Shown: positions 570 through 3,500 of the stretch, piece by piece
Numbering within the stretch: the first letter of the stretch is position 1
Layout of the letters: the number at the start of each line of letters is the position of its first letter
Source of the DNA: Apostichopus japonicus
Lineage: Eukaryota > Echinodermata > Holothuroidea > Aspidochirotida > Stichopodidae
Length of the DNA stretch: 64,000 nt
Reading direction: 5' to 3'
NCBI RefSeq assembly: GCF_037975245.1
Contig: NC_092577.1
Location: forward strand, 573,001-637,000
The notes under the pieces: generated by a model
Told to the model about the DNA's origin: nothing
Seen by the model: only the letters and a program-made list of their open reading frames with translations
Database searches by the model: none
Program-made: the position numbers and the translations under genes

Positions 570-3500
570 AGATATCAACGTACTGCTGATTGGAGATCCA
601 TCTACAGCCAAATCACAAATGTTGAGGTAAAGTCTGCTCTTCCCTCTGACCTTCTATCCCCTCACCCTGCCCCATGTCCATGTTCATCCCTCCCCTCTCA
701 TCACAATCATACTCCCCCAACCTCAACATGAAAGCAGTTGGTTCAAATATTTGAGTGAAAAATGCTTGCTAAATGTTTTACTTTGCAAATTAAATCTGAA
801 AACTCATTGTCTGCATTGTAAATCTTTGAGCACAAAAAAAGGCTGTGCAAGCTCAGCCTCTGGTATTTGTTGATGATTCTCACACTGGATGGGCCTCAAG
901 GAAGCAGTGGTATGGAGTTAGTTGACTTAAGTGAATCCCAAGGGTTTATAGGAAGCCATTAGAAGCATATTTGAAAGCCTGTCCATGTGACGTTTGGTTC
1001 CTGGTGGAGTTTTGAACCAGTAACACATCAACAGTGAGCTTGTTCCTGGTGGTAAAACAGTAACACAATGGTTTTGGCAGGAATTCTAACCACCATGTTA
1101 TACCTTCAACTAACCATTATGTTCTGTTATGTATGTGAAGAGCCTCTCATAGCTTGTTGGTTTCTGTTATATTGTAAGATACAGTTTATCCATCTTCTTT
1201 GCATGTCATTTACTCACAATTCCCTTACAGGTATGTCTTAGCCACGGCTCCCAGAGCAATTGCTACTACAGGAAGGGGTTCATCTGGGGTGGGGTTGACA
1301 GCAGCTGTTACCACGGACCAAGAAACAGGAGAAAGGAGACTTGAGGCAGGTGCGATGGTCCTAGCTGACCGGGGTGTGGTCTGTATCGATGAATTTGACA
1401 AGGTAGGTAGTCAGTTAGAAAGGCTTCGTAGGTGTCAAACTCTAAGCAGGTTTATTTTTAACCCGATGTTTGAACCAGAAATAATTTTGTCTTTGCATGT
1501 ATTTATTAATAATCCACAGGATGTAAACACCAAGTATAAAGTGACCTATTCTAACTAATATATATGAATAATATGCCCAGTATTTTAATGTTTCTAGTAA
1601 CAAATTAATATGCAATTGTATTCTAATTAAATTATCTTTAAATAATAAGTGCAGCAAAGAAAGTAAAATGTGATGGATTTGTTTCTTCAGATGACCGACC
1701 AAGATCGTACAGCAATTCATGAGGTCATGGAACAGGGTCGGGTGACCATTGCAAAGGCAGGCATTCATGCTCAACTAAATGCTAGATGTAGTGTGCTGGC
1801 CGCAGCAAATCCAGTTTATGGAAGGGTAAATAGCATATAATAGATCTTTTGATATTACATAATGGTCAACAACAATTGAAGGAAATGTTGGTGGACTCCA
1901 CAAGGAAAGCCAATTGAGGCCAACAAAGGTCAACAGAGGTCAACAGATTTCAAGGTCTTGTAACTTTTGCAAACACAGTAATGCCCTTGCTTAAGTTGTA
2001 CATATTATAGAGTACAAGAACAACATTTTTTTTTTGTGGTCAAATGCCATTTGAGGTCAACAGGGAAGAGTGAAAACCTTGTAATATAATATCATTTAAA
2101 TGTTCTCATATAATATTTGACTGGTAATCACTAAGCCTGTTGGCTTGCTTGTTAAAACAGTTTGGTTATTTTCCTGTTAATTTCTGGGATCAGTTTATAG
2201 TTCGATAAGCCAGTTTTATATACTCATACAAATCCATTTCATCATGCTCAGAAATGGTCACATTATTTGCAAGGCATTCCATTATCCCAAACCTTCCAAT
2301 TATTATATTTGTCAATCAAACTTTGCTATTATCAGAATAAGGTGCACTTGTTACCCACAGTTGTCTACAAGTCAGGGTCTCTCAATATTTTTGAAACCAG
2401 TGATATCTAATACTTTCATGTTATTCTAAAGCTATTTCAAACTTATATTGGTTGTGATTTATTCACATGAGTTAATTTTTGAAATAAATTTAAAATCTAC
2501 CTTCACTGAATGCTAATTGATATGTCTCTACTGTATCTCTTTCTCAGTATGACCAATACAAGACGCCAATGGAAAATATCGGCCTACAGGATTCACTGCT
2601 GTCTCGGTTTGATTTGATCTTCATTGTGTTGGATCAGGTATGTTGTCTTGTTTGGATCAGGTATGTTGTCTTGAGATGGATCAGGTTTCTTGAGTTGGAT
2701 CAGGTATGTTGTCTTGCATTGGATCAGGTATGTTGTCTTGAGTGGATCAGGTTTTCTTGAGTTGGATGAGGGTATGTTGTCTTGTGTTGGATCAGGTGTG
2801 TTGTCTTGTGTTGGATCAGGTATGTTGCTTTGACTGTCGCTTGATGCCAACAAATTTTCAAATCCTACCACAAACTGGAGTGATAAAATAATTCATAGCA
2901 AGGACCAAAGAACTTTCCACTTGGTTTATCATCATATTATTGTTTCCATTTCCATTCTAAGTATCTCATAAAAGATTTGATGTGCCAATAGACAGAAGCA
3001 ATGGAGTGATGAATATTTTCCATTTTGTGGTTTAGTTTGATCCTGAATTGGTTAAATAAGCACCTTCTCAGTCTGTAGCTATGGTAACTAGAGGCTTTCT
3101 TTGTTCTAAAACAGCCTCTCAGTCTGTAGCTATGGTTACTAAACTTTTAAACCTGCCTTTTATTTCCTCCTATTAATTTCAGATGGATCCTGATCATGAC
3201 CGTAAAATTTCTGATCATGTTTTGAGGATTCATCGCTACCGAGCTGCTGGAGAGCAAGACGGCGCACGTAAGTTGCAGCATTGGTTAATTAATGGGACTT
3301 TCTGGGGATTTCTACAGAGGCCATTGTCATCACCATGGTGATGCATGTGATCTATTATTTGTACAGATCTCTGAATTGTGATCGCATGGAACACTCATTA
3401 GCATGTGAACAAGAGGGGTGATGGACTAGTTCAAAGTAACTTGATAGCATGGAAGCACTTATTAGCATGCTAGCATGATGGGTGATTGACTTGTTTCAAA

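Follow-up and report, generated by a model that had tools for sequence, protein, structure and literature searches.

A minisatellite seeded by an exon–intron boundary places a series of splice-donor copies at an MCM3 exon end of the sea cucumber Apostichopus japonicus

The MCM3 exon end and its tandem array

The analysed window is a 64-kb stretch of the A. japonicus genome (C17:573001-637000; assembly of 671,581,487 bases in 35 contigs), and it holds an MCM3 gene modelled as 12 exons between positions 570 and 9654, all exons being predictions from sequence. In the model, 487 residues align to residues 338-808 of chain 3 (MCM3) of PDB 7pfo, presumably a human structure, which is the best PDB match (E 1.1e-187), and the first 317 residues match the Pfam families MCM (4.1e-79) and MCM_lid (5.8e-23). 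The N-terminal part is absent from the model and should lie upstream of the window. The alignment to chain 3 bears out the initial annotation, which had named the gene MCM3 and had placed exons at 2548-2637 and 3183-3267; the intron between the two measures 545 nt. A search of the assembly with the 317 residues, for a retrocopy or second haplotype from which splice choice could be read, matched 21 places, none of them usable as such. Seven of these belong to the present gene on C17 (64-96% identity), and the other 14, outside it, show 39-74% identity and were read as MCM paralogues. There is one MCM3 locus in the assembly, and no second haplotype was seen there. The features at the exon end are as follows.

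2548..2637, plus strand: MCM3 coding exon of 30 residues with a phase-0 end at CAG (translation, 12-exon model, alignment to PDB MCM3)
2624..2827, plus strand: minisatellite made of nine 19-25-nt units that runs from the exon end into the intron start (TRF, unit list)
2624..2637, plus strand: exonic portion of the array, TTGTGTTGGATCAG, lying in the IVLDQ codons and probably its seed
2623..2755, plus strand: higher-order duplication, units 1-3 (66 nt) against units 4-6 (67 nt), 91% identical
3183..3267, plus strand: next MCM3 exon (gene model, alignment to PDB MCM3)

The repeated segment consists of the last 14 exonic bases of the MCM3 exon and about 10 intron bases, so that, as had been proposed, the exon–intron boundary itself, donor included, has been amplified in an essential gene. 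TRF delimits the array at 2624-2827 (period 24, 8.9 copies, 80% matches, score 259), and nine GGATSAGG cores, starting at 2631, 2654, 2678, 2697, 2721, 2744, 2764, 2789 and 2813, agree with the nine tandem units annotated before. The start previously set at 2628 has to be moved, since the array reaches 14 nt into the exon, to 2624, and the range of 19-24 bp given for the spacing describes all intervals (23, 24, 19, 24, 23, 20 and 24 nt) but one of 25 nt between units 7 and 8. Outside the array, GGATSAGG occurs at just two other places on the plus strand of the window. The 14 exonic nucleotides are found again, unchanged, in units 8 and 9. Furthermore, AG|GT is kept at the register of the authentic donor in 8 of the 9 units, unit 7 carrying AGG|GT, shifted by one. 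A block of three units appears to have been duplicated, because the two blocks have 91% identity and units 3 and 6, both shortened, continue in the same way downstream of GGTTT; it is the block identity that carries this conclusion, the unit-order permutation test by itself being weak (0.12 of orders were equally good).

The genome is rich in minisatellites. TRF arrays with a score of at least 50 occupy 16% of the window. Within the MCM3 span their share is 25.5%, and they cover just 14 of the 1465 MCM3 exonic bases. One of the 23 MCM3 junctions lies inside an array, against a mean of 5.84 under rotation, which indicates that arrays avoid exons in this gene; at least one junction was inside an array in all 5000 rotations, and a single overlap therefore needs no special cause. 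Another array in the window, with 11 copies of a 107-bp unit (5495-6675), ends 6 nt before the MCM3 exon start at 6682. The acceptor's pyrimidine tract comes from the last unit, which makes this array a possible acceptor-side counterpart. A 17-bp unit, TTTGCCCCTATTTCCAT, is repeated about 147 times at 23453-25941 and yields long repeat-coded open frames. The window also contains an open frame with MORN repeats (51378-51740, plus strand; Pfam 2.3e-16) and minus-strand open frames that look like sulfotransferase pieces by eye (12519-14345 and 25909-26196); two of the latter share the motif YLVIGVTEEF/YMVIGLMEEY, and Pfam gave no match at E 0.01. An Rfam scan of the window gave no match, and an exact 22-mer search found no occurrence in prokaryote genome contigs or in viral contigs.

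Unequal donors and their frame consequences

The donor copies, with their distances from the authentic donor, are listed below together with the stop codon that closes the extended frame.

2638..2643, plus strand: authentic donor GTATGT in unit 1, joining exon 2548-2637 to 3183-3267 in frame
2661..2666, plus strand: duplicate donor GTATGT, +23, frameshift with a stop in the next exon
2685..2690, plus strand: weak duplicate donor GTTTCT, +47, frameshift
2704..2709, plus strand: duplicate donor GTATGT, +66, frame kept, 22 residues gained
2728..2733, plus strand: duplicate donor GTATGT, +90, frame kept, 30 residues gained
2751..2756, plus strand: weak duplicate donor GTTTTC, +113, frameshift
2755..2757, plus strand: in-frame TGA; donors past it carry a premature stop
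2772..2777, plus strand: duplicate donor GTATGT in AGG context, +134
2796..2801, plus strand: duplicate donor GTGTGT, +158
2820..2825, plus strand: last duplicate donor GTATGT, +182

Donor strength was judged by the energy of the duplex with the U1 5′ end and by a weight matrix built from the 10 remaining MCM3 donors of the window, that is, from predicted exons of one gene. Five donors (2638, 2661, 2704, 2728 and 2820) share CAG|GTATGT and are identical in both respects (-8.3 kcal/mol; 8.67 bits, a score reached by 18 of the 3751 plus-strand GT sites of the window). Donors 2796 (CAG|GTGTGT; -7.7 kcal/mol, 6.73 bits) and 2772 (AGG|GTATGT; -6.2 kcal/mol, 8.29 bits) are comparable or slightly weaker. 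By comparison, donors 2685 (CAG|GTTTCT) and 2751 (CAG|GTTTTC) have duplex energies of -5.6 kcal/mol and matrix scores of 1.75 and 1.32 bits, lower than those of all 11 predicted MCM3 donors in a leave-one-out comparison (4.48-10.69), and 851 and 989 of the 3751 plus-strand GT sites, respectively, score as well. The two measures agree in the main, although by U1 energy alone 2685 and 2751 match or exceed some of the donors predicted to be real, whose values run from -4.5 to -11.9. The initial annotation's nine donors of nearly equal strength are thus reduced to about seven plausible ones, five identical and two comparable, which may compete with one another.

The earlier description of the reading frame is correct: the frame stays open to 2757, ending with the TGA, and a transcript spliced at 2704 or 2728 remains in frame across the junction with 3183, gaining 22 or 30 residues behind LDQ. 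The six other copies lead to premature stops. When 2661, 2685 or 2751 is spliced to 3183, a stop follows 40 nt into the next exon, and for 2772, 2796 and 2820 the stop at 2755-2757 precedes the junction. Heavy use of alternative donors would consequently be costly to an essential gene, as six of the eight alternatives give a premature stop. The fourth donor is in frame because the first trimer measures 66 nt, and it may be chance that this is a multiple of three.

Predicted RNA structure does not single out one exposed donor. At 37 °C the unpaired probability is 0.073 for donor 2820, the least hidden, and 0.003-0.014 for the other eight, none reaching the 90th percentile of the region (0.211), and the array region folds no better than its shuffles (z 0.85).

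Similar arrays at other exon ends

The 13-mer GGATCAGGTATGT occurs 25 times in the genome, against 14 occurrences of the reversed control, five being in MCM3 and five in an array on C8 (C8:26261183-26261786). The C8 array comprises seven copies of an 88-bp unit after a 93-codon open frame. Its units carry the end of this frame (...KDLFDISVNWVR), GTATGT donors (GATATG in one unit) and a pyrimidine-rich AG, and it is an independent array of the boundary type. In total, 27 arrays were inspected: 14 found with CAGGTATGT among the matches listed (MCM3 included), the C8 array, seven found with AAGGTAAGT and five with CAGGTAAGT; an array on C1 made of two blocks was counted once.

At four of the 27 arrays, an exon end with protein homology lies at the array start. 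Besides MCM3, these are L039, directly after an RWD exon (E 1.5e-5), L041, directly after an EF-hand exon (E 1.5e-5; 24.6 bits, just under the Pfam cut-off of 25.4), and L044, directly after a C2H2 zinc finger exon (1.4e-11). Two more arrays follow long open frames without homology, namely L045 (90 codons; background fraction 0.037) and L052 (93 codons; 0.032), each value being one of 22 unadjusted tests, and another two, L048 (with an exon piece of 16 residues) and L058, have possible exon ends by eye. Pfam gave no match for the exon peptides of L045, L052 and L058, and that of L052 had only a chance-level match in PDB (E 0.091). At the remaining 19 arrays (L040, L042, L043, L046, L047, L049, L050, L051 and L059-L069), no sense exon end was recognised by eye in 240-330 nt of upstream flank; beside L060 there is a minus-strand, ferlin-like exon (E 0.0028, under the Pfam cut-off). 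Because similar arrays start at other exon ends, the arrangement in MCM3 is not unique.

The length of the open frame before the first donor fails as a discriminator. Of 22 arrays, five are within the top tenth of background lengths, and these include L061 (0.055), though it was not counted as an exon end; MCM3 (0.325), L041 (0.354), L048 (0.595) and L058 (0.486) lie outside it. Nor is a genome-wide enrichment of donor-motif arrays claimed. Three copies of CAGGTATGT gave 129 overlapping matches against 26 for the reversed control, but the C1 array accounts for half of the matches listed (50 of 100), and the counts for AAGGTAAGT (27 against 25) and CAGGTAAGT (29 against 28) are close to control, so that two of the three motifs are without excess. 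In addition, any match to a strong donor motif has a good chance of being a genuine donor, and the counts therefore show recurrence rather than enrichment.

Relatives, origin and alternative readings

It is a studied idea that introns are gained when genomic segments containing AGGT are duplicated in tandem, the duplication then making a new intron. The MCM3 array likewise arises from a duplicated segment with a splice signal; unlike in that model, its copies lie in an existing intron. For human IFI6 (6-16/G1P3), Turri et al. reportedly described in 1995 a minisatellite giving multiple splice donors, and a sea urchin paper is said to deal with short tandem repeats in Sp185/333 genes. No boundary minisatellite of an echinoderm was recognised in searches of the openly licensed literature, which does not prove its absence from print. 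According to PMC4526556, downstream repeat units of human IFI6 are used as donors and give three mRNAs; tandem donor copies at an exon end are common to IFI6 and MCM3, the latter being known here from DNA alone. In human paralogues, variable internal tandem repeats at exon–intron boundaries can generate alternative splicing patterns, as stated in PMC2812944; these repeats lie in primate segmental duplications and are linked to novel intron formation, unlike the MCM3 array.

The closest likeness is to the amphioxus “mirages” of Adh3, the globins BflGb6 and BflGb9, and troponin C, as PMC3087553 and PMC3902484 describe them. In both cases tandem units hold an exon end, a splice signal and an intron end or start, with AG/GT kept in many units; in MCM3, 14 exonic nt and the donor lie inside the array and 8 of 9 units keep the signal in register. 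The MCM3 unit length falls within the range of the Adh3 mirage (10-72 bp), and the BflGb9 mirage is likewise at the 3′ boundary of an exon. The differences lie in the gene, in the unit number (nine, compared with 6 and 3 in two BflGb6 haplotypes), in the evidence (one genome sequence here, also RT-PCR and allele data in amphioxus) and in the host, which is a cephalochordate in these papers and an echinoderm here. As “mirage” names an anatomy, the host taxon limits the term “amphioxus mirage” and not “mirage-type array”. In this regard, the kind of array is known, while its taxon and recurrence look new.

We favour, as the probable explanation, a mirage-type passenger minisatellite that was seeded by the exon boundary and leaves splicing mostly at the first donor, 2638. 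The exonic repeat codons read IVLDQ here and IMLDQ in the PDB relative 7pfo, and this conservation indicates that the exon sequence predates the array and that the boundary served as template. The repeats themselves are present in the sequence; as to the order and mechanism of the duplications, a stretch of about 24 nt over the boundary, made up of 14 nt of exon and about 10 nt of intron that meet in CAG|GTATGT, would have been tandemly repeated, and the 66-nt trimer would then have been copied as a block, as by slippage or unequal exchange. The copies sit in the intron and mostly stay donor-like. If the spliceosome commits mainly to the first copy, at the end of the coding exon, the array would be a passenger of unstable length and nearly neutral effect; any splicing that leaked to 2704 or 2728 would lengthen the protein by 22 or 30 residues behind LDQ, and any that leaked to the remaining donors would yield premature-stop transcripts, expected to be degraded. 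Several points speak against the passenger reading. Rules for identical competing donors often favour the intron-proximal site, which predicts 2820 rather than 2638, and 2820 is also the least hidden donor in the predicted structure. By analogy with IFI6, downstream copies may be usable, and the two in-frame copies fit a functional view.

Regulated use of the array donors is possible, and in a functional array the alternatives would tune the MCM3 level through nonsense-mediated decay or provide longer in-frame isoforms. Five identical strong donors, the in-frame donors at +66 and +90, and the premature stops of six of the eight alternatives, with more exon junctions downstream, would suit such a role, for which IFI6 offers the precedent (PMC4526556). 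We nevertheless consider it unlikely, given that the added residues are repeat-coded and hydrophobic, that similar arrays occur at unrelated genes, and that amphioxus mirages are reported, in PMC3087553 and PMC3902484, to be spliced regularly despite extra AG/GT signals.

The acceptor scores bear on two further readings. With scores of 6.2 and 6.5, the AGs that precede 2638 and 2661 fall inside the range of the 12 predicted MCM3 acceptors (2.8-11.2), whereas those before the other seven donors (-5.8 to -0.4) score below all of them. Recursive splicing at zero-length exon ratchet points would draw on the AG|GT junction found in nearly every unit and on these two AGs, but with seven of nine AGs scoring low, short spacings and an intron of just 545 nt in place of a long one, it is hardly credible. 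Alternatively, the array could be a step to intron sliding or gain, AG|GT copies shifting the exon end by whole units or a middle copy becoming an exon. A model of this type was proposed for the amphioxus globin mirages (PMC3087553), and tandem genomic duplication has already been studied as an intron-gain route. Among the copies, however, 2661 alone has an AG that scores like the predicted real acceptors, and it lies just 23 nt from 2638. A length of 23 nt is too short for an intron, and we regard this reading as quite improbable. An assembly or sequencing artefact might be suspected, since tandem repeats are error prone and the single MCM3 locus in the assembly offers no second copy to confirm the array; it is very unlikely, because the units carry private changes and the array spans just 204 nt, and in addition the window contains no Ns and the flanking exons are intact.

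How the spliceosome chooses among identical donors is an old question, usually approached through engineered duplicates. Arrays in which one genome naturally repeats identical donors at conserved exon ends could be read by standard RNA-seq and would test position rules directly, and the MCM3 array places a mirage-type case in another phylum and in an essential gene. It is a tentative proposal, and one we hold with some doubt, that exon-end donor minisatellites form a recurrent class in this genome, tolerated even in essential genes through a first-donor rule by which, among identical donors in a row, the one ending the coding exon wins. Were this true, evolution would have varied copy number and spacing in what amounts to a set of natural experiments on competition among many donors, and boundary minisatellites would then be no lancelet curiosity.

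Elsewhere in the assembly, C35 (16,099 bases) is the mitochondrial contig. At 11 COX1 sites, AAA fits Asn, several of these sites lying in conserved motifs; ATA fits Ile and AGA fits Ser. Genes named by eye from table-9 translations follow the order cox1-nad4L-cox2-atp6-cox3-nad3-nad4-nad5, then nad6(minus)-cob-nad1-nad2, an arrangement of the echinoid/holothuroid type, which together with the codon readings indicates an echinoderm. Five COX1-like pieces at C29:14745-31219 may be insertions of mitochondrial DNA or a disrupted mitochondrial copy.
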